This document shows positions 29,974 to 59,650 of a DNA stretch of 64,000 bases, piece after piece; within the stretch, counting starts at the first letter, position 1, and every line of letters starts with the position of its first letter. Origin of the DNA: Sphaerolaimus hirsutus (taxonomy: Eukaryota; Nematoda; Chromadorea; Monhysterida; Sphaerolaimidae); assembly GCA_964036195.1 (NCBI GenBank), contig OZ038459.1, positions 16,179,206-16,243,205 of the forward strand, written 5' to 3'. The notes below the pieces were generated by a model, which ran no database searches, had not been told where the DNA came from, and was given only the letters and a program-made list of their open reading frames with translations. A program made the position numbers and the translations under genes.

Positions 29974-30030
29974 TGACGGCGGGCCACCAAAGTGCCAGAC
30001 CTATGTCTCTGGGACGGTGACCCAGCGTCA
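29974..30030 (+). other. RNA hairpin motif, copy 1 (LTR)
   Basis: Outer stem TGACG/CGTCA with CACC/GGTG, inner stem CCAGA/TCTGG, loop CCTATG, a one-base variant of the usual CCTACG. Confidence 0.85.
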
Positions 30031-30047
30031 ATATGTAATGCGAGAAC

Positions 30048-30104
30048 TGACGGCGGGCCACCAAAGTGCCAGACCTATGTCTCTGGGACGGTGACCCAGC
30101 GTCA
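30048..30104 (+). other. RNA hairpin motif, copy 2 (LTR)
   Basis: Same sequence as copy 1, in the second 74-bp tandem unit at the LTR start. Confidence 0.85.
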
Positions 30105-30247
30105 ATTAACGCATACAAGCCCTAATTATGGCGCTTTAGCCGCCGGAAATGCCATACGGGCCATCTTTAGACCCAAGTGACGTCATCACGACGTCGCCCC
30201 ATACGAAACCTAATTTATAGGAAACTTACGGCGCAATGGACGCCAAC

Positions 30248-30322
30248 TATGGTAATTGGCGCCAGGTCACCAAAGTGCCAGACCTACGCCTCTGGGACGG
30301 TGATTCAGCGCGAATTACCATA
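30248..30322 (+). other. RNA hairpin motif, copy 3 (LTR), longest stem
   Basis: Outer stem TATGGTAATT/AATTACCATA (10 bp), then GCGC/GCGC and GGTCAC/GTGATT, inner CCAGA/TCTGG, loop CCTACG. Confidence 0.9.
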
Positions 30323-30889
30323 GAACGGTAAATCGATGGCGCTATGCCGCCGGCCCTAATTAGCAAAACGGCTTAATTAGCCGCTTCTAGTTGTGAAAAG
30401 GCCGGGTGACGTCATTCGACATCCCCGGGAATGGAACCTAAATTTTGTGAAACTTACGGCGCTTTTATTAAAAAGAAAAGCAGCGCCGAGTGAAAACTGT
30501 GTTTCCGAGTGTGGCGATCAAACGAGCCCCGGCGAACGACTTCGACAGCCGCGACAGCGCCGCGCCGCCGCCATTCGACACCCGCTGACCGCCGGAACCC
30601 GGGAGAGGGGGATTTTGGTGTTTTGGGGATTTTTGTGAATCTGTCGAATCGGTCACTTTTGGCCGAGTGCCAACTCTCTGAAAACGGCACCTAGTGTATT
30701 TTCGAGGGGGGTTAAGCACTGTCGCCGTATTTGGGCGACAGTTTATCGCTCAAAACTCGTAAATTCACCCCCTACCCAGTTCCCGCGAGCGTCGATAGCG
30801 TTGGCCGCCGGGAACGTCCGCGGAGCGACAGACCTCGGCCGCTCAGAGTTCTTGGTGGGAGTGGCCACCGGAAGGGAGGGCCCCGATAG

Positions 30890-30914
30890 CTCCAGAAGCC
30901 TACGTCCTTCGGAG
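30890..30914 (+). other. RNA hairpin motif, copy 4 (LTR), short variant
   Basis: CTCC-GAAG/CTTC-GGAG stem with one bulged A and the same CCTACGTC loop. Lacks the AAAGT internal loop. Confidence 0.6.
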
Positions 30915-31734
30915 TAGAGACGGGTCAACCCTTCTGGAGGGATATGTGCCTTAGGTTAAAAATTAGTAAAGGAAATTGGAAGAGTGCCAAAAGGGCCGTT
31001 TTTGTGTGTAACTTGGCACATATCCCACAGCCATTGCTGCCACAGGGAGGAGTTTTGTGATTTTGTAGGGTGTAGGAGTAGGTTTAGGGAGTAGGTTCGC
31101 GGTAGGTGCCGCGGTATGTGATTTATGGCGCGTATATTTGTGTTTATTTGTATTTAATTACCCACCTAACCCCCTTAGTTTGTGATAATTGCATGTGTTT
31201 GTGATTGTATTTCTACGTTTGCACTTATTTCTGTGTTTCGCACGTATTTCTGTGTTTGCACTTTTGCAGGTTGTGTTTACTTCGCGTCAGTCGATTGGTA
31301 CGCTGGTTGGACGAGCTCACGTTTGAGCGAACACGGTTGTTTTTGTGTTTTGGTCCTTTTGCACTTGTTTGCAGTGTTCGAGTAGCTGTGGATTTACTTG
31401 GCACGTTCCCAATGGTATCACGTTTAGTTTTGGAGAGTTTCGCTCAGTTGAGTCATTTTTAGCTGTTAGTTGTGCGTTTACATTTGGTAGGTTACTGTAG
31501 GTGGTTATTTCCTAGTTTGGCACAGTTCCAAGTTTGGTTTCATTAGCTGGCTGAGTGCCAGAAGAAAGGTGTTCCTGAATGTCAAGTCACCATCCCCTTG
31601 TTCCATTAAAAAGTAACCCTTGTGGTACTTGGCTTGGTTCAGCTGAAGTCACTTATTTTCGGTACACTTTCGAATGCACTTTCGTGATTGGTTGGCTCCG
31701 CCCAGCTGCAAACCGGTTTTGGGCACTTCAAACC

Positions 31735-31772
31735 TATAAAAGAGAGCCCCAATCTTGTGTTTGTCATCAGTC
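31735..31772 (+). promoter_or_regulatory. LTR core promoter, TATA box plus initiator
   Basis: TATAAAAG (31735-31742) lies 34 to 27 bp before the A of TCAGTC (31767-31772), the canonical distance, and TCAGTC fits the arthropod-type initiator. A CCAAT-type box (ATTGG) and a CCGCCC box lie within 50 bp upstream. Predicted start is about 31769, which would define the beginning of R. Confidence 0.7.
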
Positions 31773-32447
31773 TATTCAATTCAAATTCTAATTACTAAGT
31801 CAGTGATTTACCAGCTGAAATGAGCCTACCCTTGGTTATTCATTCTCTGCTAACTCTGGCATAGGCCTTCTCTTCCCTCTGCACGGTGACATTTAGGTTC
31901 ACAGGGGCAGGAGTGGCCACACGGAGCTGCCGGTATAGCTAAGATAGGGTGTTGTATGGGGAGAACCCACCATCTGTGATGCTTACTGTACGTCTGGACC
32001 TCTGTGGACTTGTTTTAGGCGTAGTATAAGCTGAAGTAGGCTGTACACCTATTGACTCGCTCTAGGCTTTCGTAAGGGCCCAAACAGTTGTGCTACGTCG
32101 TTGTAGATTACTTTTGATAGTGGTGCTGTGCCAAGCTAGGACTTAAGTACCTGGACTTGTGTGGTCTCTTACCAGTGTACCGTATTGCTATCCTCACCTG
32201 TCTGGTTTAGCTTATATGACCCTGAGTGTTATTTAGTCATTTTTATGTTAATGTTTTGATTTGGGAAGTGGAAAGGTAAATTGGAAATATTCAAATACTT
32301 TGGAAACTCTATTTTTTTTGCAAACGTGATTCGAGAAACCCAATTAGTGTAATTCAAGCTTACTCTGGTGCAACTAATTCTCTACTCAATCTATTGGCTC
32401 ATTCCAGCTAGTGGATCTAATTATTTCTAATTCTGATTGGTGAAATC

Positions 32448-35400
32448 ATGATGGAAGTTGCTTTTATCTGCTTGCATTCGAGTGATGTTCAATTGTCGGT
32501 TTTCGAAGCGTGGGCGAACCTTGTTTCTGTTTCTGAAAGTGCGCCGAGTTCTGAAGGTTTCTGGGAGGTTGAGGATTTGGAAATGGGCCCCGTTTTTGAT
32601 AGTTTTGAACCCGTGTCGGAAATGTTTCAAATTCAGCGAAGGGCCACGTACGCGGAAAAGGTTCAGGGCGCCGGTGATTTTGTTGTTGATTCTGTCTTGC
32701 CCAATGGCGAAGTGGTTTGCGATGCTTCTCAGCAGTGGTTGCTTGATCACTTGATCATAGAGCCGACTTTTATTGAGCCCGGAATTTGTGGTGTTTCTGA
32801 GAAAACTGCTGAGAGGCTGAAGAAAACTGTGCAGCCTAGAAACCTTTGGTATTTGGTGGGTAAGAGAGGGAAATTACAGCCGCACGTCATTCGCCGCAAG
32901 CTTTTGCAATTTGCGCGACCGGACTTTGTTAGCTGTGGCAACCAAGTAGACCGAAAAGCTCAGAAGCCTACGTCCTTCGGAGTAGCTAGGTCGAAAGGCA
33001 CCAAGCTGGTGAAGTTTGGCAGACAGGGTTCCCGCGCACGCGGCAAGCGTAGGGCTTGTAGGGCAATTGTTGATCGTCCGGTGGACATTATGCCGTTCGT
33101 TGAATTATCGGAATTGTGCGATTATTTGGTTGGCGTGTTGCCATCGTTTGTCGTTCCACGGGTGCAGAAGGCAGTTAAGTCCCCTGTTAGGTGCTGTACA
33201 TTTGGCGTAATTAGGCAGGATGGACTGCATGAGCGCATCGTTGAAAGTTCTGACGGAAGTGGACATTGTCCAAGGTGTTGCTATTTGGCCCACAATGGGA
33301 TCAGAAGTGAAGTTGCAGTACCCGGGGGTCCGCTATATTATATTGGAGGTCCCACCTCGGGTCACGGCACCGTGTTGCACCCCCCTTTTACCCCCCCTTC
33401 ACACCGCACACATAGCCACCCTCCACGCGTACAGGGCGTAGTGTTTCAGCTTAGCCCTATGCTACCGTGCACATACTGGAACCACAAATGTTGGCTTTTG
33501 CGTAAGCATTTTGAACGTTTGAAATGTGTATCACGCGCTTATTACCGTTTGATCTCTTGGCATACTGCCCCATCCATGTTGCAACAGAGCCAAATTTCTA
33601 AATTTGAGGGATTACGATACACCATGCCCTGGCGACGATTTTTGATACGAATTTTGAAATTTCCGAAAAATTTTTCATGTCCCGCGTCAGTCAATTGTCA
33701 ATTCAAAACTTTCGAAACTGTTGATGGCGAGCCAGAGCTATGTCAATCATGTGAAAAATACGTGACCACTGACTACTCTTATGACTCGTTTGATTATCAA
33801 TACTTATATTTGTCAGTTGACGATGGTGCACCATGGTCCTTTGATGATTTGGAGCAATCAACCGTACTAAGCTCGTCACCATGTGCTTCAATTGATACTG
33901 ATTCACTAAAATGCCAGACCTACGTCTCTGGGATTGTGGGCCAGTGTCAATTCGAGCATGATGTGGATTTGGCAGCCGGCCAGTATTCGTATTTGCCAGC
34001 TGATGATGGTGTATCAGGGTCTTCTGATGACTTTGAGTTTTCAACTGAATGGAGCTTGTCATCGCATGCTTCAATTGACAGTGACTCACTAAAATGCCAG
34101 ACCGACGTCTCTGGGATTGTGGGCCACGGTCAATTCGAGCACAGTGTTGACTTGGCAGCTAGCCAGCCTAGTACTCTAGACGACTCTACTTGTGACACGG
34201 ATGTGGCTTTGGAACATGTGTGCTCCACTACCTTGTCTGCAGCCCAATCGTTTCAAACAGTGTTTATTGAGGACTCACTCAATTCTTTTGAAATTATTGA
34301 CGATTATATGGCTGACCCCGCTGCACTGAGTGGAGCACACACGACGCCAGATGCCAATGATAATTACATGGTTCATGCCGCGGATATTAATATGTTGCAG
34401 TATAATTCATCCCTGGGTGTGGTTACTCGCCGCCGCGGCAATTCTAACCAGCAAAGCTTCTTTGAGCTAGACGGTAGGGAACGCGCGCGCCCTGTCGGTC
34501 AATGGGCCAGTACTAGCCGCCACGGTGTTACGTGTAGTGATGTTGGTGATTCTGTGGGTTCTCAGGGCCGGATGTCTGACCTAGCCACCCCAGCATATAC
34601 CGCTGAGCCAGGGATGTCATATGTCAATGAGTCTCGGGATACAGTGTTAAGACGACCGCACGAAGAATTCCCTCACGCTACTAGTTCCCCGTGTCTGAGC
34701 ATTCAATCTCCTAGTAGACCCCCCACCTCTGTCTGTGATCTAAGTACCCCCGTGAAACCACCACCTTCCAACCCCGTTAATAGCCCTCAACCCCAACCCT
34801 TCACTGGGCTGGTAAGACAACATCGAGAATTACTGACGAATAACCAATCAGAGATTGATACTATGATTTCCCCCTTGCAACAAGCATGTGAACCTACTAA
34901 ATTATGGGATCACCTGAAACCCTCAGATCAGTGCATTGGGGATGTGTTACAACCCTTTGAAAAACTTCTAAGCGAACTTGATCCCGAGATAAATAAGTTA
35001 GACCAGCTATTGTTTGACCTTGCCACTGTGACATCTTCTGACCCATCCCAGCAAACCACTCTGGATAATGTTACCTCGGCCCTGATGACCCTCCGAACGT
35101 GGTCACAGGCAATGTTGCCATTCCGTGGATCCCTGCAAGACTCCATTGACCGTACTCTAAGTGTTCACTTGAAACCCCGGGTTGACTCCCTAGCGGGTGA
35201 TTTACAGTCCCTACTGAGTAACTTTTGTGCTGATGCGAATGCCCTAACTAAGCCCCCCGCGGATGTGTCCACGCTGGCTCAGAGACAAGCGAACCAGCAA
35301 GTACTGGCAGCGTCAGACCCTGGCCCCGCGCGCCCACAGTCACGCGCCTACCCCGTTCAGTGTGCACTTGCGTTTGTGCAATCCGTTTTGCTCGTTTCTG

Positions 35401-38400
35401 CACAGTCAGCAAGGGATTGGACTACCCTTCGTTCTCAGATTCAGTCGAAATCAACGGCTGGCGTTTTTGGCCTAGAAAATAAGGGAGTATCCCAAACAGT
35501 GCGCGCTGCAGCTCTGCGTAGTTTGACAGAAGCCTGGGTTTACCTCGATGTGCACCGAACCGGATTTAGCACGTACATGCCATTGCTTGGCACCTTGCCA
35601 GAAACAGCTCGGTATGCTATGGCACAATTTCATGGATGCATAGCTGAGGGCATTCGCCTCAACCATGCGTTTGCGGATATATTACCTGAAATTAAGCGCC
35701 AAGTTAACGGTTCTATCGCTCGTAAGACAAGGAAAGAATTATTGGCACATCTTGGTAATACCCTGGACTCTGCCCGGGACCTTTTGTGTCGCTTAGAGAA
35801 TTTGGACTTTGCGCAGTACAATGCCCTATGTGCAGTGCATATCGGTCGGGTCTCAGACAGGTGTACCCCCCAGAAATGTCGGTTGGTGTGCCAGAATTTG
35901 CTGAATAATATCGGCTTTGGATTAGACTGGCTACACCAGTTGCGTGGAAAAACACCTGTTTCGACACCCAAACCGCAACCTTCGCGAGTACTTGAGCCAC
36001 ACCAGAGTACGCATCAACCATCCATGTATACCACTCCGTTGAACCGTAGCATTTCAACTTTACCCCCCGCCTGGAATAATGTCTTAGTAGCCCATCTAAT
36101 GAGCCCCGATCCTATGCGGCGCTTGGCGACACATCAGTGGCCGCCTGATCCTTCTATCAAAGTGCAAACTGACCCGCCGCGCATTGTACTGACTGACTTA
36201 TCCATGCACGCTTGGGTAGAACCTGTAGGGCCGGAGTTCTCTGTTGGCCCAGTGGCTGAGCTGGATGTCAAAACCACTTGGGTCGGTCGTATTCTGCCTA
36301 CAGTCGGTATTATGGACACACCCTGGGCCATCATTGATCCACGGAACACCGATCTCGTGCGCGCGTATTCTAAGTTGTTGATCGCCGCGTATTTTGAGTC
36401 TGAATACATTTTTCAACTCGTGTTTCGTTATGGCTGGTTCCCAGATAGCTTACTCACTGCATTTCAGCGCTGCGCCTTCCTTGTGCAAAAGCTTGTTGAC
36501 ACGCTTGATCGCTCTATTAAGCATGGTGAAACGGTAGGCATAACAGACACCTATCCGCTACCCGAACAGTACCATATTAATGGCCGCTTTTTGTATAAGT
36601 TGGCTAGTGATGCCCGTCGCGATTACACACAAGTTGGGGCTAACTACAATAAGTTGGCACGACGATACGGGGCGGTGCCTGTGCACACTACTCCGATGCT
36701 TCCAATTGACCGAAATAATCGCTTCGAGCATTCTCGCCGCCGCTTACAGTTGCCTACCGCTCAAAACGCTCACTCACAGATGGTCCGGGTAACGAATAGT
36801 GGCAGCTATGATGCTAACGTAGATATGATTCAGCCGGATGATGTAGGAACGCGGGACAACCAATACGACTTTCTGTTGTCGCACCAGGGTTATCAGCAGC
36901 CTGATTCGGCTGGTGGAGCCCCTGTACCCGCCGCTGTGCAGGCGCCCCAGCGATTATATCATATGGGACACCAGCACACCGGTAGGCTCTCGGTTCCACC
37001 AGCACACCCCAGCTCTTCTGTAGCACCCACTTCGGCTCTAGATCAACTTAAGTCAGAAATGGACCAAAAATATGCTAATATGCGTGACCAGATGGAGGCT
37101 ATGAACGCTAACATGCGAGCCCTATTAGACCAAAGACGTGCTCAATCACGAGCTCAGCCTCAAGTTTCGCAACCGAATGTATCAAATGACCCGCCTAGCA
37201 CCACAACCAGTTCAGATGAGGATTTGGCTAAGCGTATTAAGAAGCTTAAGATGCTTGGTTGTCCCATGTTCTCGGGTAAAACGTCTGTTGATGTCAGCCA
37301 GTGGCTAGCACAGTTCACCGCGAAATGTAAAATTTGCAAAATAGCCTCTGACGAAGAAATGGCCTTGACTCTGGCCGCTGTGTTGGAACATGATGCAGCG
37401 ACCCTGTGTTATGGTCAACCACAGGAAGTCCAGACCTCTTTTTCGAAATTGGAGTCAGCTCTTAAAGCTCATTTTGGTCAGGCGAAACATGTGCTAGCTA
37501 CATGCCGAGCGATCACACTTATGAACTGGAAACCCAATGATACGATCGATACTGTGCGACGCCGTTTGATGACCGAATCGGCACAGTTAAAAAATGTGAA
37601 TCATAGCGAGCGCGAATTGCGTATGATTGAGGGATTTTTGCACGCTTTGGGTCAGCATAACTCGGAGTTGCGTCAACTAGTTGAGTTAAACTCTGCTGCA
37701 CTTGAGTCTTTCGATAAGCTGATCCAGCATGCCAAAGTCGCTCAACAGTCCTTGGAAAACCGTAAGCTTGAGCAAGATCGCTCAGCTAAGGATACTGAGT
37801 TTAAGCGCATGCGCGATGAACTCTCGCAACTGCGGCAGCAAATGTCTAGCGCACGCATGGGCGATAACCGTCAGCAGTTGGGTGGCGGTATGCTAGCTGG
37901 CCAACGGCCAATGTTTCGACCACCGATGGATATGCGCCAAAACCCGCGATTTGCTTTCCCTGCGCCACAAGCGCAGCCTAGTGCTCAACCCCCGTTCAAT
38001 GCACAGCGCATGCCGTTTAGACCGCAACGGGATATCCCGCCTATGCGTCTACCTCCTGCCGTACAAGGCCCGCGCTTTGCCCCGCGTCCAACAGTTGATG
38101 TAGGGCCACCCGTGGTAGCTATTGATAAGCCCGGTCGACAGCCTCCCAATGCTTACAAGAGCTATTTTTGCGACAAATGTAAAATGCCCGGCCATACCAC
38201 CGAAGAGTGTGGTCGTCGTGCAACCGGTCCTACCTCATCTGGCCCTGCACCAGCCCAAACGCCGCGTGAGCCACTTAAGTGTTTTAAGTGCAATAAGCCT
38301 GGCCATTTCTCGCGTGAGTGTCCCGAAAACACGCCTGCGCAGAATGTCAATGAACTGTACGCACAGTATGATATCATACCCGACGATCAAATTGGTTACA

Positions 38401-41400
38401 CTGATTTGCAAGATGATTTAGTTGATGGGGTAGCAGACCCTAACGACTTGCAAGGCTATTATAACGAATACCCTTCGGAAACCATGCATCAGTACCAATA
38501 TGATTACTCGGATATGGTACCACCAGAGACAGACGCATTAGCCGAAGAGGAGAACGACGTGCGTGTAAACTTTCTGGGTTCCTGTCCAGAACTTTATAAC
38601 CATTCTGACTCAACTCCAATAAGTTATTTTGACGTTTGCGTTACGCAGTGGGTGGACACGTCTACCACTGAGCCAAAGGGCGCCGCGCCAAAGTGCCAGG
38701 CCTACGTCCCTGGGACGGCACGCGCGCTCAGCGACTCAGTGACTGGTAGGAGACCCACTGTAAGCTTCTGTAAAACCTTGACTGGTGTTCCCCAGGTCGA
38801 TCATGTTTGCGATTCGATTCCACACCCAAGTATTCCGGAAATTCGCATTCAATCTTGCGAACCTGACCAGACCTCAGCCCTCGCGGTAACCACGCAAAAG
38901 TCCCAAGCCTACGCCCCTGGGATTCGTGATATCGCGAGCACTGATGACCTGGAGCATGTAGTACTGAGTAGTCCAAAAGGTGCGCAAGTACAAACACAAA
39001 CGTCTACCTGGACACCATCTATTAATATGTTTCGCCCTATCAACCCCGCGACACACACGTCTGTAGTTGCCGCCCTAGATCTCAGCACTTCGGATGCTGG
39101 CCGAGAAACTTGTCGTGACCGTAGGAAATACTATTGGGAACAACTCTCCCCGGATTTAGGTGTTAAGCGCATGGAATACCAATGTAATGCCGCACAAGTG
39201 GTAGTAACCGAACCATTGGGTGCTCGCTTGCAAAGTGGCAAAATGACGCGTCCAAAGCACACTGTGCGCGATTTAATTACACCTAGTATTTACCACCGCG
39301 CCGTAATCCAAGGTGTAGGACCCTATTTAGTATTAGCTGATACTGGCGCAGAATTAAGTGCCATTCCCGTGTCTTTATTAGAGCAAATTGAGAGCCTTTC
39401 AGGGAAATGTTTAGACCGTCGAATCTTTCAATTGGAAAAACCCCTTGTTTGTAAAGGCTATACAGGACATAAACATACGTTACTGTACTCGATCCAATTG
39501 ACAGTCTCGATCGGTACGGAAACACGACGCATAAACTTCGCAATTTCCTTTGAAGGCACTCAGTGCATTATAGGTATTGGTGATTATGCTAAATTTTGGT
39601 TCCTACCTATTTGTCCTGGCGCTTGTATGACTCGACCGGTTATGCACAGCAATAAACGGTATCTCATCCCGGGCGATGAACCTTGTTTGCTCTATGAAGG
39701 GGAAATCCCCTACGTAGACACCGGGTTACGTACAGGCGCCATTGCAAAATCAGGTGAAAATATCCCAGAAGCAATTGAACGAGTTCAATCTAGCAATATT
39801 TACACTGTAGGATCACTTTTAGAGCCGTATTTGACACCGAAAACAGATGTAAATAGGCTTTGCTCTTCGTCACCGGTTCCCTATTTTTCGCCAAGTAAGG
39901 GCACCGGTGCGGTTGGGGTTGTTGCAACGGAAAACTGGGTATGCCCACCGCGCTCTGTGTCTTATGTGCCCGCTGAGTTGACAGGTGATCCCCAGGAGAT
40001 ACTCACCACGGTTCTTTTCAGCCCACATGCACACTTTTCCGAAAATTTCGAAAACACCTTGCTACCATTAGAGAACGGGAATGAGCTCTTTGTCCCCTTC
40101 GCAAATCATTCGGATAAGGAGATGGTCTTATTTGCCTGCCAGTCTCTTGGCTGGGCCGAAGAGGTAGTGGTTGAACCGACTAATGACTTCCATATGAACG
40201 AACTCGCAGTTGAATTTGCCGATGTGTGGTGGCAAACAGTGCAGACACCTCTGTGTAAGGCTCTCTGTGAAGCCAACTTGGCTTCCACGCATGTAGAACC
40301 CCCTGAGGACCCTGTAATTACCGCCCAGTCACCCCCTGAGACTCGATTACATCAACTTGGAAAAATTCTAGACGAAGGAGTACTTAGTCACCTCCCCTTG
40401 GAAAAGCAACAGGTGTTGCGTGACTGGCTATTAGAACGCCACCACATCTTTTCACTGTCCGATTTTGATATGGGAGACACAGGCGATATAATTTACCACC
40501 CTATCGAAACTGGAAACTCCCCCCCGATCCAACAGAAAGTCCGTAGATTAGCTATCGGGTTACGTAAGGAAGTTGAACGTCAAGTGCAGCTGTGGCTGAA
40601 ATTAGGGATAATTGAGCCGTCAGTGTCCCCTTGGGCATCCCCGATTGTCCCGGTGCGTAAGAAAAATGGCGCGCTGCGATTATGCGTCGATTACCGTCGC
40701 GTGAACCTAGTGACTAAGCGTGATTGTTTTGCACTGCCAAACTGTGCTGACCTGATTGACATGGCTGGACTTGTACATCCCCAGTATTTTTCATCACTTG
40801 ATTTAGCGTCTGGCTACTTGCAGATGCGCATTGACCCTCGGGATATTCCAAAAACTGCATTTACTAGCCATGTCGGTTTGTTTCAGTATAAATTCATGCC
40901 GTTTGGCCTAGTTAACGCGCCAGCCTCATTTAGTCGGCTCATTGCCAATGTACTTGCGGGATTAGACCCAGACCGCGTGCATTTTTACTTGGACGACGTT
41001 TTGGTTTGTGCCGAAACTGAGGAACGTATGTACTCACTTTTGGACGACGTCTTTGCTCGTTTCGATCGATACACTCTCAAAGTCGGCATTAAGAAATGTG
41101 AATTTTTCAAAGAACGCGTTAACTTTCTGGGTTGCGTCCTAACGAGGGAAGGCATCGAAATGCAACAGTCAAAAATCACCACTATCCAAAATTACCCAGT
41201 TCCAGTAACCACTAAGGAAATCCGTCGATTCCTGGGCATGTGTTCCTTTTACCGTCGCTGGGTTGAGGGCTTTTCCTTTATTACACGACCGTTGCATTTA
41301 AAGATCCAGGGTGCTAAGACTACGTGGGATGACGAATGTCAGGCGGCCTTCGAAGAACTTAAGAAGCGTTTAGTAGAAGGCCCAATTTTAGCCTACCCTA

Positions 41401-48600: not shown

Positions 48601-51600
48601 CGCCTCCGAACGCTTTTGGTGTTTACGGCCAGGGCACCCAGACCGCTCTGCATTGCCAGTGCGCTGTAGTCGTGGTGGTGGGCAACGATTGGTTTGTGCA
48701 TGACATTGAATTCGGGCAAGTGCGCTGCGTTTTCCCGCGCGGCCGCTGCACCGACTTGATCGAGACGCACATTCTCGACGAGGCGAATTTGCCCGAGGCG
48801 GACACCGCTCGTGTCAGCCGGAATTATGGCGACATCGCAGCCTATAATGGCGAGCCGCCTCAGGCGGACACTGTCGAGTGGAAGACGTGGGTGCTGGTGT
48901 GTCAACTGAACGGGATCTACTATGGGTGGGCAACGCCCCCAGTTGGCAAACTACTGCCCACGCTGGCCGCCGACATGTGCCCCCTTGAGAAAGCCCTGTT
49001 TGACCTGCAAGTCCAAGGGGCGCGGCTGGACGAAGTTGAGGCGCTAAACTACTTCCACGCCGTGATCATGCATGTCGGTCTGGTGGGAACACGCCTTGCG
49101 CGGCCGGAACAGCCGGCGGACATTGGTGCAACGCCGCTCGCCTCGCCATTCTGTTATTTTTACGATGAAACGAGCCGACTGGCGGTGCACATCATCTGCG
49201 GCTGGTGCCCGCGTGAGTGGACATCCCGCGCGATCGAACGGAACATGCGTATTTTTCAGCCATACAGCGAGCGCCCGCTACCCCCTGGTATTCCGGCCAA
49301 GTCGACCCTCGATAGGATCATAGCCGGCCAACAACTGGCGTACGAGCTGCGCGAGCAGTACTTCGCGGTGTTGCTAGGGGCACCCGCTTGTGAGCCCCAG
49401 GGGCGTGTCCAATTTGGTGCCTCCTTGCCCTACCAGCTAGCTCGCACACAACCAGCGCTGTCGTTCAATCAGATTCTGCAGGTTTTGCACTCTGTGAGAA
49501 GCCAAATTGCCCCACCGGAGCCGCAGGAGCCCTTACGGTTTGATGTCATCCACAATGCGGAGCATTCCCTCATGCGACGGGCTGACAATCAGGATCCCTC
49601 TGCAGACCCAATTGAGGAGGTTCGCACGAGCGGGACTCCTGACGGCAACCCCGTTCATACTTGGTTGACTAAGGTTTACCCGCATCACGGCTGCTTTGAC
49701 GACGGACGCCCCGTGGAGGACGTCGCGGGATTCCAGGGGGCGCAATATAGGTCGGCGCCTAACCGCCTGGTCAATTTCTTTTTCGACCCGCACAAGCGCC
49801 CCTTCACCCAGCTAGCTTCTGGCGTGCGCACGTGGGATGTCGGCCTGGTAGAGCCTCGTGCCTTGCCAGTCCCCGATGACCCCCGCCGGCGCATTTTGAA
49901 CCCTGACGAGTCGGCAGATGAAGGGATGTCCTCAGCCGCCCCTAGCGTAGTGGGACAGCTGGAAATTGTAGTCCCAATGGAGGTCGCGGCCGGCGAGGAG
50001 CAGTCCGATGCGGGTGTCTCGGCTGACCACGTTCCGGATAGCTGGTCCCAAGAGGTGGAAGCAGCGAACCGGGCCGAGGGCACCTACAGACTCCGCATCG
50101 TACCTCTTCAACCGGTGCGAAACCAGCTCGCTAAAGAAGTGTTTGAAAGCGCAACCGATGACAGAATTCGCGCTGTGGCGAGGGCGTTGCTTGGTCACGA
50201 CGACTCAGGGAACAAAGAGAGACTGGACGCGCTGGGTTTTTCTAAAACAGCGGTGTGGTCGTCGTTTGGCTTGGTTGATCCCTTAGAACCGGCAGCGTAT
50301 TTGGTGCCGGAACTGGGAGACGACCCCTTTGACGGTTTTGGACCGATCCCACTCCGCGACGCCTACGTGCCACCGGCTGCACTTATTCAGCCAGACGGTG
50401 ATGTCCAAGTGGCCCCGGTTAACCCGGCCGTGAATAGTTTTCACACTCACGAGCAGGGCCGGCGGTTCTTCCGCGAGCAAAATGTCCCGTACATTACGCT
50501 CGAAACAGGGTTGATTCTGGGTATTATGAACAGCACCCCGTATTTCTACTATGAGGTCCCTATTGAGGGCCGTATGATCGACGTTTGGCGCCGGGAGGCC
50601 TGGCTACCCATGACGCAGTACTGGGATGAGCTGCTTCCAGACCACATCACGCAGTTGTTTACCATTTTTCGCCAATATTACGCGGCGACAATGCAAGGGG
50701 AAGACGTTCGACCGTTCTTCAACTTGGGGACTAAACAACTGCAGTTAGTGCGGAATGCAGGGCTCCCACCTGCGGCGTCAGGGGAGGCCGAGTCGAATCA
50801 CTGGTTGACAAACGCGTTTGGGCCGGCTGAACGCGCGCGCTTAGTGGCCGTCGCGAGGACCAGAGGGCATTATAACCCTGATTGGTCCCCGCGACACCCG
50901 TTGAGGAGGGCCATGAGCGAGTGGCTCCAGCCGGAGCAAACGTACGCACCCGGTTGGGAGAGGTTACACGTCGAAAGCGTGCCCCTCCCACTCCGCCCCC
51001 TTTATGCTGAGATGCTTATGAGCCTCAGCTTGGACGAGTCTCGGTACACCTCTAATGCGGGACGCGCCTTGCCGTTCTTCCTTGACAGTTTTAGCGACAA
51101 ACCGCCCTTGACCTTGGAAGTGCCTGTGCCGCCCAATGTCTTCGCCGATTCGGAAGAAGTACTGCCTACCTTGCCAATAGGGCACCGCTATTTCGGTGGC
51201 GGTACGAACGTGTCACTGACTAGGTGCATCTTGAATTGGTTGTCGTTTTGGCGCAAACAGCGGGAACTCCTACACGTGTTGGTGCTGTCAAACGAACAGT
51301 GGGCGGCATACTGCGTGCGTTTCCCCGAAGCGCCACGAACTTGGGTCAGGTGGCAAGACCGACTTAGGCAGGCAAACCCGGACCAGCTGCGGGCTATGCT
51401 TGATGAGACTCAGGACGAGTTTACGGCCTTCTTGTTGCGCGCGAAGATCGTGTGTGCGACTGTTAAGAGACCCTCCGACCTTGTCTTGCAACCCGTGCTG
51501 AACACGTCTTTAGGTCGTTGGCTCGACTTTCGGTTGTATATCCTCCGGCTGCTGGCACTGGATGGGAGTCCCGGTTTGGGAAGACCGGACGTGCACGCAG

Positions 51601-52490
51601 GCGTGGGTACGATATCGATTGGCGACTACCACACGTATCTATTCTTCTCCGGAGATAGTCCGCTGGGGAACTTTTTTAGGGCCCCTATTCCACTAATGGG
51701 CGATCTGTACGTGCCGTCATCTGAGCACTTGTATCACGTTCTGCAGTTGATCTTTAGCGGGGATCACGATTTGATTGTGCCCCTGCTCAGACACTCGGAG
51801 CCTAGTCGCTGCAAGTCTCAGATGACGTCCTGGCGTAGGGAGGGTAGAATCGCCGGCTGGAAACAGAAACAGCAGGAGTGGCACAACTGCGGTCTTGCCG
51901 TTGCAGCCATGCACGCTGTTTTGCGACTCAAGCTGGCGACCTGCCCGGCCTACCGGAACGCCCTCGCTAACAACCCCGACTCGATTTTTATCGAGGCGAG
52001 CCCACACGACCCGTTCTGGGGTATTAAACAAGGCATGAACGACCGGACTCTTTGGACAAGCGTAGAGACGTGGGGTGACAACTGGCTGGGCCGGCTGCAT
52101 ATGACAATGGCGGAGCAACTAGCACGTGAACCCGCACCGCGTCCGTGGCCTGTTCTGAGCCTGAATGAATTGGCGATGTCCACCCTTGCGAAATGCAGAG
52201 GCGCCGTCCAACGGCCACGACCGCTTCAACCGCTGTCCACTGCACTCGTGGATAGAATTGCACGGTGCAGGGCGGTGCGGCGGTATGCCCCCAGTGAAAT
52301 TCCGCCAACTATCACGACCGTGCAGTTTGTCCAAGGCCAAGATCCGGCCATTGCGATCGGACAGCAGGTGGAATTGGGCCAGCGCCCCATCCCGCAACTT
52401 GCAGTGATTGAACGCGAGCACAACCTGCCGCGAGGGGCAAATAAGGCCGCTCGTAGGGTACACCGCCTGCGTCAGGTCCGCACTAAGTAG
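45678..52490 (+). CDS. Long cargo protein with C-terminal NADAR domain
   Basis: Two long open stretches in the same frame (45678-47222 and 47298-52490) are separated only by TGA codons at 47220 and 47295. An intron at 47212-47307 (96 nt; donor GTAATC, branch-like TACTGAC, acceptor TTGACAG) removes both and keeps frame, giving about 2,240 residues. Most of the protein matches nothing I know. The C-terminal part (about 51610-52110) is a NADAR domain: FFSGDSPLGNFF, the SSEH motif, then a Trp-rich insert and FIEASPHDPFWGI followed by GDNWLGRLHM. Known NADAR proteins bind ADP-ribose-related ligands, and several remove ADP-ribose from guanine in DNA. Here it could counter ADP-ribosylation by the host, which is inference. 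The region is GC-rich compared with the flanks. Confidence 0.8.
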
Positions 52491-52521
52491 CTTGTACCAG
52501 GCAATAGAGGAGTGCGGTGTG

Positions 52522-52584: not shown

Positions 52585-52654
52585 ACTCCTTGATGTCTGA
52601 TCGATTTTATTTTGACAATTGTGTGATGGCTATACTTTTATATGAGCTAATTAG

Positions 52655-52701
52655 CCGGAGGATTAAAGTCCCAAGCCTACGCCCCTGGGATTATCCAACG
52701 G
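52655..52701 (+). other. RNA hairpin motif, copy 12
   Basis: Outer CCG/CGG and GGAT/ATCC; inner CCCA/TGGG. Confidence 0.85.
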
Positions 52702-52757
52702 TGATGTCAGAATTATCGAAATTTATTTATACGGTTATCCTTGCCATGACGGCGCAA

Positions 52758-52816
52758 TGCGGTGTTGGGGTCTAAAGTGCCAGACCTACGTCTCTGGGAT
52801 TGCCCCCAGCACTGCG
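52758..52816 (+). other. RNA hairpin motif, copy 13
   Basis: Outer GTG-TTGGGG paired with CCCCCAG-CAC; inner CCAGA/TCTGG. Confidence 0.88.
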
Positions 52817-52928
52817 TGGCGACGTACTGACGAGGTATTGTTATAATGCCTCACACAGTTGTGCAACGATTTCAAAATGCTACTTATGTTTCGAAATAAA
52901 AGGGGTCTTTTTCTGCAGTACACGTGCG

Positions 52929-53000
52929 CTATGATGACTGACTGATGAATTAAAGTCCCAAGCCTACGCCCCTGGGATTATTCTGACGCCAGCCGCATAG
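52929..53000 (+). other. RNA hairpin motif, copy 14
   Basis: Outer CTATG/CATAG, CTG/CAG and GAAT/ATTC; inner CCCA/TGGG. Confidence 0.85.
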
Positions 53001-53043
53001 TCGCCAGAATTTCATGCCCTGATTGACAGTTTTATCATGTAAT

Positions 53044-53107
53044 GTGCCGTCGGTGGCTAAAGTGCCAAGCCTATGTCCCTGGGACTGCCACTGGTGACAC
53101 ACGGCAT
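53044..53107 (+). other. RNA hairpin motif, copy 15
   Basis: Outer TGCCGT/ACGGCA and GTGGC/GCCAC; inner CCA/TGG; loop CCTATG. Confidence 0.88.
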
Positions 53108-53235
53108 GGTATTGCTGGTCTTCCCAAATCGACAATCACTTGTCTCGCCCTTTAACCTCATCGAATTTCGCAATTCATCCAAATATCTGGAAACCAACAA
53201 CTGTAATTATTTGTTTTTCGGAAACAGTGTCACTT

Positions 53236-53306
53236 CGCAATGCGGTCTGGTGCCTAAAATGCCAAGCCTACGCCCTTGGGATTGTCACCAGCCGTGTAGC
53301 GTTGTG
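53236..53306 (+). other. RNA hairpin motif, copy 16
   Basis: Outer CTGGTG/CACCAG plus a GCAATGC/GCGTTGT-type stem with wobble; inner CCAAG/CTTGG. Confidence 0.88.
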
Positions 53307-54101: not shown

Positions 54102-54174
54102 TAACTCTCTCTTTTAAATGAAAGGAAATTTTCCATTTTTGATTGCAACCTTGTATACATTTGTGGTATCACGT

Positions 54175-54248
54175 CTCTGAGGGCCAGGTTGAGGGGTTAA
54201 AGTGCCAAGCCTACGTCCCTGGGACTACCCCATGGCCTGGACCCAGAG
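54175..54248 (+). other. RNA hairpin motif, copy 20
   Basis: Outer CTCTG/CAGAG, CCAGG/CCTGG and GGGGT/ACCCC; inner CCA/TGG. Confidence 0.92.
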
Positions 54249-54792
54249 GCAAGGTAAAAATTTGTGTTTCTTCACGCCGCGCAATTTTGAGTTGTTTTAA
54301 ATAGTTATACCTCGACCATACTGAGCATCGCTGTAAATAATTATTCTTAGCTTCCTACGCCGCTTTTGTATTTTACCTGTATTTAACAAAACCGCGTGGT
54401 CACATTGAAGAGGGCCCCTGGCTTTACATGTGTATTTAGAAATATCAGGACGGCCCCGGTCATTGTGTAATTATTTGGGACTGGACTCATGGAATTTTGT
54501 GCACACAGTTTTTCCTTTAAAACTCCAGTGACCTTGAACACTTTCTTTTAAACAGCCACCTGGATAAAGACTTTTTGCTTCCCACATTTAAAGTAATCAC
54601 CAATAATTTTTGCTGGTTATGGCTGGGAACAAATTTTTGCAGCCACACAGTGGCCATATTAGTGGAAAACAGTTTAGTTCAGTTTCACTTCAATCTTCAT
54701 GTTTTTTCCAAAAATTTTCTCATGTTTTCCTTGAAACTTTAACGGAATATTTTTGCACAGGAAACACTTTTCTGCATCTATCCTTCTTGACT

Positions 54793-55362
54793 ATGGATCA
54801 AAATCAAAATGCTGGCCACACTCATTGCTTGACAATGTCTGTCATGACTGGTTCACCAAATATAAATTTCCATGAATTTATGTACCAAGGAGACAATGAA
54901 ATTGTCATGCGTGTGACCGCTGGAGAAATGCGGCTCACACAGCCACTTCAACGTGAGCTTGATTGGCAAGATCCCCGTCGCGAAAAGTGAGAATTTTCAT
55001 GGGTTCAGCGTGAAAAAAAACTGTGTATAATGACCAAAATTTCTTTCAGCTTGAGTGAATCTGTCCTTCTGTGGGGAAACACGGCTTTTGGAAATGACCA
55101 GCCACTGTTGGCAATAACTGGCCATGTGGCACCGATTCAACAATGTCAAATCCATGGCACTGGCACCCCAATGCAAGTACCGGCCCACTGTCTACCGAAT
55201 AGGGAGTCGTCGATTTCACCAACTGATTTCACTTATGACCCGCATCTTTCTGTCGGGCCCCCCATGCATGTGACCACGCGAGTTATTAATTCACATAGTT
55301 TTCCTATCAATATCACCCTGGAACAGATTGGCAATTTCGTAGATATCAAATTGCAATTTTAA
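54793..55362 (+). CDS. Small spliced cargo protein, relative of the 19-22 kb family
   Basis: Exon 1 (54793 to about 54987) starts MDQNQNAGHTHC. Donor GAAAA|GTGAGA, acceptor TTTCTTTCAG at about 55049, then an exon to the stop at 55362. Phases match (2+1). About 167 residues, rich in short strands. The second exon begins SESVLLWGNTAFGNDQPLL and has AITGHV, then VINSHSFPINITLEQ. Intron place and these patterns align with the plus-strand gene at 19525-19964 and loosely with paralogues A-C. Having an intron in the sense strand of an LTR element is unusual, since reverse transcription of spliced RNA would remove it. Function unknown. Confidence 0.6.
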
Positions 55363-56204
55363 TGGCTTCGATCCTGCGTTGAGTATTATTTCCTTTCCGC
55401 TTTGAGGTAAACGTAGTAATTCCAACAACAACATTTGCCAAATTTATTTGTGTACCCGCTATTATCTCTTTTTACTATGGTGCAGGTGAACCACGACGCG
55501 TACTGATTCAGTTTCTAGTGTGAGTTGGGTGCAGCGGTCTAAAGTGCCAAGCCTACGTCCCTGGGACTGACCAAAGCACCCATTGTGTATGTTTTGATAT
55601 CGCTTTTCTGAAATTTTCTCTTAGTAAGCGCAGTCACTTAGTTGCACGCGGTGATTTTTTGGTAATTGCGGGAGGTAAACCGCCTGAGCCATGAGCTTGT
55701 GAAGTTAGCCGCGAATTTGATTAGTAGCTGCGTTTGTGCCACCAAGATTAGATGCCATTGTTTTTGTGCTGCGAGAATTGTTAGCTGAATGTTTTCTACC
55801 GGGATCCCTTTTGTGAATTGTTGTATTTCGTGCTGTTGTGAATATTTTCTAGCCCTCGTAGTTGGTTTTGTTTAGTCGCGTTTAGTTTATATTTTTAGTG
55901 GCATTCCACTTGTCTTCCGGTCTCACTTACGGTTCTCACGATTCTGCCTTTAAAATTTTTCTTGCCATAATCTTAGATTCGGTTTCGACGCTTTATTAGG
56001 GTGCTTCCAGTGCACATGTTGGCGTACTTTCCAGGGTTCCACTTGCGGTCTAGTAGCAATTTTAACGTACCTCAAATATCTACCTGCAATACACCGCAAC
56101 GCTTTAAATACATGAAAAATATCAACATCAGTCTCGACAGTTCCTTGTAAATAGTATATAACACCCTCTTCGCTGCTGTTACGCTGACTAACCCGCGCTT
56201 TTAG
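55363..56204 (+). other. Cargo 3' non-coding segment
   Basis: Contains one hairpin (55526-55582). Otherwise T-rich sequence with no ORF of note. Confidence 0.6.
55526..55582 (+). other. RN hairpin motif, copy 21
   Basis: An RNA hairpin of the same family: outer TGGGTGC/GCACCCA and GGTC/GACC; inner CCA/TGG; loop CCTACG. Confidence 0.92.
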
Positions 56205-56220
56205 AAAAGGGGGGAGGAAG
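56205..56220 (+). other. 3' polypurine tract
   Basis: AAAAGGGGGGAGGAAG, 48 bp upstream of the 3' LTR start as defined by the target duplication. TGTGATGCC directly follows it, so the original LTR may have begun at 56221. Confidence 0.75.
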
Positions 56221-56268
56221 TGTGATGCCTGTTCGCGCTGGGCCAGCGCTCAAAAGGTCGGTATAGTA

Positions 56269-59200
56269 TGTAATGCGAGAACTGACGGCGGGCCACCAAA
56301 GTGCCAGACCTATGTCTCTGGGACGGTGACCCAGCGTCAATATGTAATGCGAGAACTGACGGCGGGCCACCAAAGTGCCAGACCTATGTCTCTGGGACGG
56401 TGACCCAGCGTCAATTAACGCATACAAGCCCTAATTATGGCGCTTTAGCCGCCGGAAATGCCATACGGGCCATCTTTAGACCCAAGTGACGTCATCACGA
56501 CGTCGCCCCATACGAAACCTAATTTATAGGAAACTTACGGCGCAATGGACGCCAACTATGGTAATTGGCGCCAGGTCACCAAAGTGCCAGACCTACGCCT
56601 CTGGGACGGTGATTCAGCGCGAATTACCATAGAACGGTAAATCGATGGCGCTATGCCGCCGGCCCTAATTAGCAAAACGGCTTAATTAGCCGCTTCTAGT
56701 TGTGAAAAGGCCGGGTGACGTCATTCGACATCCCCGGGAATGGAACCTAAATTTTGTGAAACTTACGGCGCTTTTATTAAAAAGAAAAGCAGCGCCGAGT
56801 GAAAACTGTGTTTCCGAGTGTGGCGATCAAACGAGCCCCGGCGAACGACTTCGACAGCCGCGACAGCGCCGCGCCGCCGCCATTCGACACCCGCTGACCG
56901 CCGGAACCCGGGAGAGGGGGATTTTGGTGTTTTGGGGATTTTTGTGAATCTGTCGAATCGGTCACTTTTGGCCGAGTGCCAACTCTCTGAAAACGGCACC
57001 TAGTGTATTTTCGAGGGGGGTTAAGCACTGTCGCCGTATTTGGGCGACAGTTTATCGCTCAAAACTCGTAAATTCACCCCCTACCCAGTTCCCGCGAGCG
57101 TCGATAGCGTTGGCCGCCGGGAACGTCCGCGGAGCGACAGACCTCGGCCGCTCAGAGTTCTTGGTGGGAGTGGCCACCGGAAGGGAGGGCCCCGATAGCT
57201 CCAGAAGCCTACGTCCTTCGGAGTAGAGACGGGTCAACCCTTCTGGAGGGATATGTGCCTTAGGTTAAAAATTAGTAAAGGAAATTGGAAGAGTGCCAAA
57301 AGGGCCGTTTTTGTGTGTAACTTGGCACATATCCCGCAGCCATTGCTGCCACAGGGAGGAGTTTTGTGATTTTGTAGGGTGTAGGAGTAGGTTTAGGGAG
57401 TAGGTTCGCGGTAGGTGCCGCGGTATGTGATTTATGGCGCGTATATTTGTGTTTATTTGTATTTAATTACCCACCTAACCCCCTTAGTTTGTGATAATTG
57501 CATGTGTTTGTGATTGTATTTCTACGTTTGCACTTATTTCTGTGTTTCGCACGTATTTCTGTGTTTGCACTTTTGCAGTTTGTGTTTACTTCGCGTCAGT
57601 CGATTGGTACGCTGGTTGGACGAGCTCACGTTTGAGCGAACACGGTTGTTTTTGTGTTTTGGTCCTTTTGCACTTGTTTGCAGTGTTCGAGTAGCTGTGG
57701 ATTTACTTGGCACGTTCCCAATGGTATCACGTTTAGTTTTGGAGAGTTTCGCTCAGTTGAGTCATTTTTAGCTGTTAGTTGTGCGTTTACATTTGGTAGG
57801 TTACTGTAGGTGGTTATTTCCTAGTTTGGCACAGTTCCAAGTTTGGTTTCATTAGCTGGCTGAGTGCCAGAAGAAAGGTGTTCCTGAATGTCAAGTCACC
57901 ATCCCCTTGTTCCATTAAAAAGTAACCCTTGTGGTACTTGGCTTGGTTCAGCTGAAGTCACTTATTTTCGGTACACTTTCGAATGCACTTTCGTGATTGG
58001 TTGGCTCCGCCCAGCTGCAAACCGGTTTTGGGCACTTCAAACCTATAAAAGAGAGCCCCAATCTTGTGTTTGTCATCAGTCTATTCAATTCAAATTCTAA
58101 TTACTAAGTCAGTGATTTACCAGCTGAAATGAGCCTACCCTTGGTTATTCATTCTCTGCTAACTCTGGCATAGGCCTTCTCTTCCCTCTGCACGGTGACA
58201 TTTAGGTTCACAGGGGCAGGAGTGGCCACACGGAGCTGCCGGTATAGCTAAGATAGGGTGTTGTATGGGGAGAACCCACCATCTGTGATGCTTACTGTAC
58301 GTCTGGACCTCTGTGGACTTGTTTTAGGCGTAGTATAAGCTGAAGTAGGCTGTACACCTATTGACTCGCTCTAGGCTTTCGTAAGGGCCCAAACAGTTGT
58401 GCTACGTCGTTGTAGATTACTTTTGATAGTGGTGCTGTGCCAAGCTAGGACTTAAGTACCTGGACTTGTGTGGTCTCTTACCAGTGTACCGTATTGCTAT
58501 CCTCACCTGTCTGGTTTAGCTTATATGACCCTGAGTGTTATTTAGTCATTTTTATGTTAATGTTTTGATTTGGGAAGTGGAAAGGTAAATTGGAAATATT
58601 CAAATACTTTGGAAACTCTATTTTTTTTGCAAACGTGATTCGAGAAACCCAATTAGTGTAATTCAAGCTTACTCTGGTGCAACTAATTCTCTACTCAATC
58701 TATTGGCTCATTCCAGCTAGTGGATCTAATTATTTCTAATTCTGATTGGTGAAATCATGATGGAAGTTGCTTTTATCTGCTTGCATTCGAGTGATGTTCA
58801 ATTGTCGGTTTTCGAAGCGTGGGCGAACCTTGTTTCTGTTTCTGAAAGTGCGCCGAGTTCTGAAGGTTTCTGGGAGGTTGAGGATTTGGAAATGGGCCCC
58901 GTTTTTGATAGTTTTGAACCCGTGTCGGAAATGTTTCAAATTCAGCGAAGGGCCACGTACGCGGAAAAGGTTCAGGGCGCCGGTGATTTTGTTGTTGATT
59001 CTGTCTTGCCCAATGGCGAAGTGGTTTGCGATGCTTCTCAGCAGTGGTTGCTTGATCACTTGATCATAGAGCCGACTTTTATTGAGCCCGGAATTTGTGG
59101 TGTTTCTGAGAAAACTGCTGAGAGGCTGAAGAAAACTGTGCAGCCTAGAAACCTTTGGTATTTGGTGGGTAAGAGAGGGAAATTACAGCCGCACGTCATT

Positions 59201-59650
59201 CGCCGCAAGCTTTTGCAATTTGCGCGACCGGACTTTGTTAGCTGTGGCAACCAAGTAGACCGAAAAGCTCAGAAGCCTACGTCCTTCGGAGTAGCTAGGT
59301 CGAAAGGCACCAAGCTGGTGAAGTTTGGCAGACAGGGTTCCCGCGCACGCGGCAAGCGTAGGGCTTGTAGGGCAATTGTTGATCGTCCGGTGGACATTAT
59401 GCCGTTCGTTGAATTATCGGAATTGTGCGATTATTTGGTTGGCGTGTTGCCATCGTTTGTCGTTCCACGGGTGCAGAAGGCAGTTAAGTCCCCTGTTAGG
59501 TGCTGTACATTTGGCGTAATTAGGCAGGATGGACTGCATGAGCGCATCGTTGAAAGTTCTGACGGAAGTGGACATTGTCCAAGGTGTTGCTATTTGGCCC
59601 ACAATGGGATCAGAAGTGAAGTTGCAGTACCCGGGGGTCCGCTATATTAT
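56269..59650 (+). repeat. 3' LTR
   Basis: Copy of 29960-33341 with two differences seen. It carries hairpin copies at 56283-56339, 56357-56413, 56557-56631, 57199-57223 and 59267-59295, and the promoter at 58044-58081. The gag start at 58757 is also present; from it the frame runs out of the LTR into the MITE and stops at 59911 (384 codons, an artefact of the LTR copy unless transcribed from here). Confidence 0.95.

Follow-up and report, generated by a model that had tools for sequence, protein, structure and literature searches.

A hairpin repeated along a giant Ty3/Gypsy element of the nematode Sphaerolaimus hirsutus, a candidate multivalent cis-acting RNA signal

Why should a single retroelement carry the same hairpin in more than twenty places? 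The question is raised by a 64,000-nucleotide stretch of the genome of the nematode Sphaerolaimus hirsutus (contig OZ038459.1, positions 16,179,206 to 16,243,205; hereafter the window), in which a Ty3/Gypsy long terminal repeat (LTR) element occupies 29.7 kb at 29960-59650. An earlier note, made by reading the sequence, had described a hairpin at 21 distinct places in this element, five of them recurring in the second LTR. A scan of the window with a 30-nt core consensus finds exactly this number, a hairpin of ~74 nt at 21 places and again at five in the 3' LTR, 26 in all, and every one lies on the + strand. A covariance model (R1) returns the same 26 places and no others at E values up to 5 on both strands of the 64 kb, so that the remark in the note that no copy lies outside the element also holds for the window. 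We consider it probable that together they act in cis, within the sense transcript of the element, as a multivalent signal at which a protein would dock. The hairpins are listed below with their R1 scores (ORF, open reading frame; RT, reverse transcriptase). R1 and its alignment were built on 18 of the 21 distinct copies, leaving out 30062, 53511 and 53769; labels of this kind, such as 29988 for hairpin 1 and 30887 for hairpin 4, are positions inside the listed 74-nt intervals.

29966..30039, + strand: hairpin 1, 5' LTR; 58.9 bits
30040..30113, + strand: hairpin 2, 5' LTR, 74-bp tandem repeat of hairpin 1; 57.5 bits
30249..30322, + strand: hairpin 3, 5' LTR; 60.7 bits
30865..30938, + strand: hairpin 4, 5' LTR, divergent type; 45.5 bits
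32933..33006, + strand: hairpin 5, 5' LTR within ORF1, divergent type; 44.4 bits
33885..33958, + strand: hairpin 6, ORF1; 63.6 bits; kept in 5 other copies
34068..34141, + strand: hairpin 7, ORF1; 62.9 bits; kept in 5 other copies
38667..38740, + strand: hairpin 8, ORF1, between zinc knuckle and RT; 58.3 bits; kept in 5 other copies
38874..38947, + strand: hairpin 9, ORF1; 49.0 bits; kept in 5 other copies, in one of them truncated at the stretch end
44655..44728, + strand: hairpin 10, between ORF1 and ORF2; 58.6 bits
52513..52586, + strand: hairpin 11, 3' noncoding; 61.7 bits; orthologs in 8 copies
52642..52715, + strand: hairpin 12, 3' noncoding; 57.6 bits; orthologs in 8 copies
52751..52824, + strand: hairpin 13, 3' noncoding; 61.2 bits; orthologs in 8 copies
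52929..53002, + strand: hairpin 14, 3' noncoding; 57.9 bits; orthologs in 8 copies
53036..53109, + strand: hairpin 15, 3' noncoding; 60.4 bits; orthologs in 8 copies
53233..53306, + strand: hairpin 16, 3' noncoding, 256-bp tandem unit; 63.4 bits
53489..53562, + strand: hairpin 17, 3' noncoding, 256-bp tandem unit; 62.1 bits
53747..53820, + strand: hairpin 18, 3' noncoding, 256-bp tandem unit; 62.1 bits
54031..54104, + strand: hairpin 19, 3' noncoding; 60.7 bits; orthologs in 8 copies
54176..54249, + strand: hairpin 20, 3' noncoding; 64.7 bits; orthologs in 8 copies
55518..55591, + strand: hairpin 21, 3' noncoding; 68.4 bits; orthologs in 8 copies
56275..56348, + strand: hairpin 1 repeat, 3' LTR; 58.9 bits
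56349..56422, + strand: hairpin 2 repeat, 3' LTR; 57.5 bits
56558..56631, + strand: hairpin 3 repeat, 3' LTR; 60.7 bits
57174..57247, + strand: hairpin 4 repeat, 3' LTR; 45.5 bits
59242..59315, + strand: hairpin 5 repeat, 3' LTR; 44.4 bits

The 21 places are distinct, but they are not 21 separate lineages. Hairpin 30062 is the 74-bp repeat of 29988, hairpins 33907 and 34090 share a 183-bp repeat, 53255, 53511 and 53769 share a 256-bp repeat, and at 30271 a stretch of ~90 bp is 80% identical with 30062. Because several copies lie in duplicated units, there are at most about 17 independent hairpin lineages, of which 30887 and 32955 represent the divergent type. Their placement is uneven: 12 of the 16 internal hairpins lie in the noncoding 26% of the internal region (p=5e-5; 10 of 13, p=1.6e-4, with tandem copies collapsed), 11 of these 12 follow ORF3 and precede the 3' LTR, whose start contributes more.

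According to the individual folds and the pair table, the outer stem is variable, with small bulges, and reaches at least 15 bp in many copies. Pair 0-30 is formed in 18 of the 21 copies, and position 1.29 is U.U in 15, C-G in four and A-U in two. Unpaired A's follow on the 5' side at positions 2, 3 and 4 (A in 21, 20 and 19 of 21), forming a 3-nt bulge in most individual folds and lying within a larger internal loop in 52773, 53255, 53511, 53769, 30887 and 32955. Positions 5-12 then pair with 21-28 as the inner stem (5-28, 6-27, 8-25, 9-24, 10-23, 12-21), in which position 7.26 is G.G in 15 copies and C-G in six, and position 11.22 is G-C, A-U and A.C in seven copies each. What the earlier note took for an almost fixed internal loop is therefore largely paired (5-12 with 21-28), and only the A-rich positions 2-4 persist as its constant unpaired feature. 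The 8-nt loop CCUACGYC occupies positions 13-20; the motif CCTACG, which the note called almost fixed, is exact in 17 of the 21 distinct copies and reads CCTATG in three and CCGACG in one. Mean folding energy of the 21 hairpin 74-mers is -30.9, against -16.0 (SD 5.8) for 427 other 74-mers of the element. Loop position 15 also varies in the ORF1 hairpins of five other genomic copies (CCGACG, CCAACG and CCAATG in L039, L040, L042, L043 and L044), and since A16 and G18 stay constant in these coding copies, position 15 may not be read.

The central claim of the note was that the outer stems differ between copies yet remain complementary, and the stem examples it quoted are all present. Own 5' and 3' arms pair at a mean of -23.7 kcal/mol, against -13.0 (SD 1.1) when arms are permuted, with none of 100,000 permutations as low (17 of the 21 hairpins, leaving out 30062, 53511, 53769 and 34090), and the own 3' arm is ranked first in 11 of these 17 representatives. 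Of the cells in the 18-sequence alignment, 85.2% are paired, compared with 66.0 in shuffles and 27-51% with partners slid; 10 of 12 pairs carry changes on both sides (7.0 expected; 3/500 shuffles), and 45 cells are changed on both sides where 18.0 (SD 3.3) are expected (0/500 shuffles). A tree-aware covariation test was also applied, our own implementation in R-scape style, in which the null redistributes substitutions over a FastTree tree. Of all column pairs separated by 4 or more, the five that score highest belong to the stem, and six of the 12 stem pairs have E<0.05 when only these 12 are tested, by which the hairpin counts as a conserved structured element.

Duplicates inside the window, and other copies in the genome, allow constraint on the hairpins to be measured. 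In the 256-bp tandem triplet (53224-53992), variation touches one hairpin column of 79 but 48 of the 181 columns outside (p=7e-8); for the 183-bp repeat pair the figures are 10 of 79 and 31 of 104 (p=0.007). A 19-letter core pattern has 671 exact matches in the host genome (334 forward, 337 reverse; 348.5 Mb in 762 contigs searched), and the same pattern backwards has none. Among the matches listed, most form clusters with element-like spacing, and an isolated one at C1:4106232 (L045) is a fragment of the same element family; the hairpin evidence concerns one element family in one genome. Eight copies (L031-L038) whose ORF3 is divergent or partial were chosen for a comparison that takes in the 3' noncoding region and the LTR start. 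They contain 100 sense-strand hairpin matches and one antisense match (E=0.84), and every non-tandem window hairpin position has a best-matching ortholog in all eight. Ahead of the 3' LTR there are 9-12 hairpins across the nine copies; the count differs through tandem units and, in L034, through further duplicates as well, which suits a signal that depends more on how many hairpins there are than on precisely where each stands. Two matches of the divergent 30887-type LTR hairpin, ~100 bp apart, are present in L031, L036, L037 and L045, the second at 21.7-30.8 bits, where the window has one.

Divergence among the eight copies is 64/2400 (2.7%) in the core, 262/3234 (8.1%) in the arms and 2228/18984 (11.7%) outside (15.3% within the LTR start), so that the core diverges 4.4-fold less than its surroundings. 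Counts over copies are not independent, owing to common ancestry, which counting by site lessens and does not remove: at sites found in at least 6 of the 8 copies, 26/300 core sites are variable against 865/2561 outside (p=2e-22), and 102/406 arm sites (p=5e-4). The site-level counts leave out sites gapped in all other copies, and the tandem triplet zone is left out of both divergence and site counts. For 11 of the 14 window hairpins of the 3' region, compensatory double changes between orthologs occupy 7 cells, against a mean of 1.7 and a maximum of 6 in 1000 shuffles, and eight variant pair states with compensation are seen among orthologs, leaving out the last hairpin of L042, which is cut by the stretch end.

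The ORF1 regions of other copies yield 20 hairpin matches, with four hairpins kept in five of six stretches; the sixth (L041) could not be aligned over more than 100 bp with the ORF1 sequence expected there and was dropped. Loss of the stems in related copies would, according to the note, have refuted its view; they are kept in the eight 3' regions and in the five of six ORF1 regions that aligned. None of the 19 core fourfold sites in ORF1 varies, against 230/727 outside (p=0.0015), and 2/40 core third positions vary against 485/1735 (p=0.0005), while in the arms 15/56 third positions vary, as outside, and 3/25 fourfold sites. With no variable core fourfold site, few variable core third positions and arm third positions as variable as those outside, it is the nucleic acid that is constrained, not the encoded protein; by these counts the constraint is chiefly on core sequence and on pairing, not on arm sequence. 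The view of the note that the fold is under selection is therefore upheld by the tree-aware covariation, the ortholog compensations, the low core divergence and the fixed fourfold sites.

Fixed unpaired A's, inner-stem positions and a loop, all carried on an exchangeable stem, would give the hairpin the look of a protein-binding one. Each copy would dock a protein, encoded by the element or the host, that recognises three features, namely the unpaired A's, the inner stem and a loop of the CCUACG type; the long outer stem, for which any sequence is allowed, would merely present this head. The output would be the handling of a very long unspliced RNA. The zinc knuckle of ORF1 speaks for this reading. 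As to the role served, we tentatively rank nuclear export first, because most copies lie in the 3' part (from the last ORF to the 3' LTR, and in the LTR start), which unspliced and any spliced transcripts would share; with U3 at the start of the LTR, if it is organised as usual, the 3' hairpins would form one cluster near the 3' end of genomic and any spliced RNA. Selective packaging or compaction comes second and is a lesser possibility, a place it owes to the further copies found within ORF1 and between it and ORF2, and the remaining probability is shared among other RNA roles and DNA-level roles. More speculatively, some 20 private hairpins may be read by a dedicated protein of the element itself, the number of tags, and not a single export or packaging site, letting a 30-kb RNA be exported, condensed and packaged; searches found no description of a multivalent tagging system of such kind for retroelements. 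A kissing-loop partner was considered and rejected: the loop complement CGTAGG has just five occurrences on the + strand of the element, and an LTR repeat accounts for one.

The hairpins might instead exploit a host RNA-binding or processing factor for localisation, translation, stability or as a double-stranded-RNA decoy, rather than for export or packaging. Dense, long hairpins could draw double-stranded-RNA factors, and the 3' noncoding clustering would suit such a use, but a decoy needs stems and not a fixed 30-nt core, and we regard this explanation as unlikely.

Which molecule folds bears on the next alternative. If sense RNA is what folds, G-U should be better tolerated than A-C; changes private to one copy should be neutral, and shared changes should reveal selection. 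The counts used here are free of the bias that comes from taking the pairs from the sense fold of the window. Single mismatches flanked by Watson-Crick pairs number 16 G-U and 9 A-C in the window arms, mismatches in the arms of the window and the eight copies together number 32 and 27, and singleton changes 19 and 20. The near equality of the latter two, as G-T and A-C, would fit a fold acting in single-stranded DNA, for example in cDNA during reverse transcription, where it would mark points of pausing, jumping or recombination; attC sites and single-strand transposon ends are folds that act in single-stranded DNA. Every tandem unit, whether of 256, 183 or 74 bp, carries a hairpin, which points in the same direction. 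However, the placement of all 26 on one strand is compatible with DNA without demanding it, shared variants lean towards G-U in every unbiased count, if without significance, and no recombinase besides the retroelement integrase is among the Pfam matches of the window ORFs. A role in single-stranded DNA is improbable on this balance. The retroelement context and the uniform + orientation favour sense RNA, and the folding molecule is likely to be sense RNA, with antisense RNA and single-stranded DNA the less likely choices. To this extent the note was probably right to treat RNA as the selected molecule, although G-U is not significantly above A-C.

Several results weigh against a docking signal in sense RNA. 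Shared G-U:A-C changes of 9:4, 15:10, 28:17 and 13:6 lean to sense RNA and in no case significantly, where strong selection on a sense-RNA fold would be expected to yield a clear excess of G-U, and mean folding energy is -30.9 for the sense and -29.1 for the antisense strand, sense being lower in 12 of 21 with one tie. Six of the 17 representatives (29988, 32955, 52664, 52951, 54053 and 55540) rank another 3' arm first. Further pair types are not raised (21 against 19.7 in shuffles; 162/500), and over all column pairs no stem pair has E<0.05 in the tree-aware test, the best being 0.165, so that the covariation significance the note had called for is reached in the 12-pair test and not over all pairs. 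Among orthologs there are 75 broken cells against ~76 in shuffles and 113 pair-keeping single changes against 114; only the double compensations exceed, and modestly. Lastly, sequence cannot separate export from packaging, and the partner is a predicted one.

A purely mutational process is very unlikely, in which template switching at quasi-palindromes copies arm onto arm without any selection on the fold. Such copying would be blind to G-U versus A-C, as the singletons are (19:20), and agrees with broken cells among orthologs being no rarer than in shuffles, yet it would erase the unpaired A's (21, 20 and 19 of 21) and the G-G (15/21), and it leaves the 4.4-fold lower core divergence and the fixed fourfold sites unexplained. 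The evidence from the core contradicts it, which would leave it the outer arms at most. Small ribozymes typically have fixed loops set between variable stems, as here, and a catalytic RNA was among the options of the earlier note. A new self-cleaving ribozyme is nevertheless most unlikely: hammerheads are described in other retroelements (PMC6431247), but here Rfam gives no match, not even in the 3' cluster with E values of up to 5 allowed; a 30-kb genomic RNA would be fragmented at about 21 sites, some of them within ORF1; and loop position 15 changes in coding copies. Finally, the segment might be conserved for what it encodes, a protein motif (K-C-Q-A-Y-V-P-G like), with four ORF1 copies in one frame, a reading refuted by the fifth ORF1 copy (32955) in another frame, by the noncoding placement of 12/16 internal copies and by core fourfold sites of which 0/19 vary.

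The element that carries these hairpins was delimited by self-BLAST of the window, which gives direct repeats at 29960-33343 and 56269-59652 with 99.94% identity over 3384 bp. A 5-bp target site duplication, ATATG, stands on the outer flanks of both LTRs and TGGAGGTCCCACCTCGGG follows AT beyond the 5' LTR, so that the LTR limits are best placed at 29960-33341 and 56269-59650. Membership of Ty3/Gypsy follows from the LTRs, the likely primer-binding site, the target site duplication and an RT-RNase H ahead of the integrase, the domain order of ORF1 being that of Ty3/Gypsy. The features are as follows.

29960..33341, + strand: 5' LTR, with five hairpins (self-BLAST, 99.94% to the 3' LTR; target site duplication ATATG)
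33344..33361, + strand: likely primer-binding site TGGAGGTCCCACCTCGGG, 2 nt past the 5' LTR (from position and TGG start)
32421..43658, + strand: ORF1, Gag-Pol, 3745 aa stop to stop, with zinc knuckle, RT, RNase H and integrase (ORF list, Pfam)
45666..47222, + strand: ORF2, 518 aa stop to stop, without recognised domain (ORF list, Pfam)
47298..52490, + strand: ORF3, 1730 aa stop to stop, with a NADAR domain at residues 1470-1608 (ORF list, Pfam)
56269..59650, + strand: 3' LTR (self-BLAST, target site duplication)

The ORF1 frame opens within the 5' LTR (its 32421-33343 part) and crosses the primer-binding site, and in the 3' LTR the same ORF1 start is a 393-aa frame (58730-59911) that continues into flanking DNA. 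A clean purine tract, AGAAAAGGGGGGAGGAAG, is found at 56203-56220, 48 nt upstream of the 3' LTR and not adjoining it, which makes it a doubtful candidate for the plus-strand primer site, and a repeat of ~100 bp with 81% identity lies beyond both element ends (29414-29514 and 59698-59799). The best 120 relatives of pol listed have 35-45% identity, those with species names being animal proteins, and viral contigs gave no relative of the pol region. Elsewhere in the window, minus-strand frames of 645 and 232 aa lie at 1272-3908; the former, with no Pfam match, appears to resemble the protein-primed family B DNA polymerase of a Polinton-like element.

Neither ORF2 nor ORF3 has homologs at the set thresholds (~8000 candidates scored for each) or a sequence match in the PDB, and the structure model of ORF2 is useless (mean pLDDT 34). 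The NADAR match in ORF3 is at window 51705-52121 (E 5.9e-13), and the rest of ORF3 is without known content. NADAR proteins are linked to ADP-ribose removal, and the domain would suggest a counter against a host ADP-ribosylation defence. In the genome, ORF3 has 28 match rows (27 of 78 candidates scored), with at least 25 near-full copies including that of the window (at least 1663/1730 residues, 86-100% identity), and pol has at least 40 matches at 99-100% identity (40 scored of 2346 candidates). In the window ORF2 and ORF3 are separate (45666-52490; 518 + 1730 aa), whereas a 2274-aa open frame holds 18 of the 28 ORF3 match rows and a 2291-aa frame three; from these lengths, the window copy seems to have a broken ORF2/3. 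With at least 25 near-full ORF3 copies and window LTRs 99.94% identical, the family looks recently active. The copies at C1:15209972 and C7:8165880 have 99% identity to the window copy in pol and 93% in the adjacent ORF3, so that either ORF3 evolves much faster or these copies are mosaic.

How do these hairpins compare with known systems? The remark in the note that no RNA family matches agrees with Rfam 15, in which no covariance model matches the 64 kb at gathering score, or 52400-56000 at E<=5. Searches of viral and prokaryotic contigs, among which this host would not be expected, gave no occurrence of the exact core pattern, and in the titles and abstract openings of the open-licence papers listed no repeated hairpin of such kind in a retroelement is described. 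The sequence and fold are without an Rfam match, and their multiplicity is unusual; the class to which we assign them, cis-acting retroelement RNA signals, is known. Constitutive transport elements bind NXF1-NXT1 and export unspliced RNA; that of Mason-Pfizer monkey virus (MPMV) has a 3' position. Dispersed packaging signals, which are bound by Gag and needed for encapsidation, share a motif on variable stems, and hairpins of the Rev response element (RRE) or trans-activation response (TAR) type carry a bulge and a loop on a stem and are read by a retroviral protein. The hairpins here likewise have bulge plus loop on a stem, possibly with an element-encoded reader, and no Rev or Tat homolog was seen among the Pfam matches, beyond which no search was made.

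Retroviral constitutive transport elements (CTEs), such as those of MPMV/simian retrovirus (SRV), murine leukaemia virus (MLV) and Rous sarcoma virus (RSV), are likewise cis-acting structured RNAs with stem-held internal loops (PMC7551171). There, MLV has five dispersed export elements, scattered over the RNA as the hairpins are here, and RSV has direct repeats (PMC7551171). These transport elements are one or few against ~21 here, and the conserved AAGACA of the MLV element differs from the present core (PMC7551171). In RNA viruses, dispersed packaging signals have been proposed in the form of many small stem-loop copies in one RNA (PMC6281560), whereas here most copies are near the 3' end. 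Gypsy-type elements of 16-30 kb with extra ORFs are represented by Burro in planarians and Ogre in plants; the MATH, BIR, ankyrin and BCL2 domains of Burro are not among the Pfam matches here, while NADAR is, and the available text mentions no repeated hairpin (PMC6431247). Terminon and retrozyme hammerheads are likewise structured RNA motifs inside retroelements (PMC6431247; PMC9695139), in contrast to which the present hairpin has no Rfam match and many internal copies.

The result is a well-supported structured element in ~21 copies per retroelement, without a match in Rfam, and with it a testable handle on the export and packaging of RNA by retroelements of 20-30 kb, whose transcript is three times as long as is usual. 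Natural variants, with 9-12 3' tags, two core types and several loop variants, already make up a series for relating structure to function, and should the reader of the hairpin be found, the hairpin could be put to use as an RNA tag.

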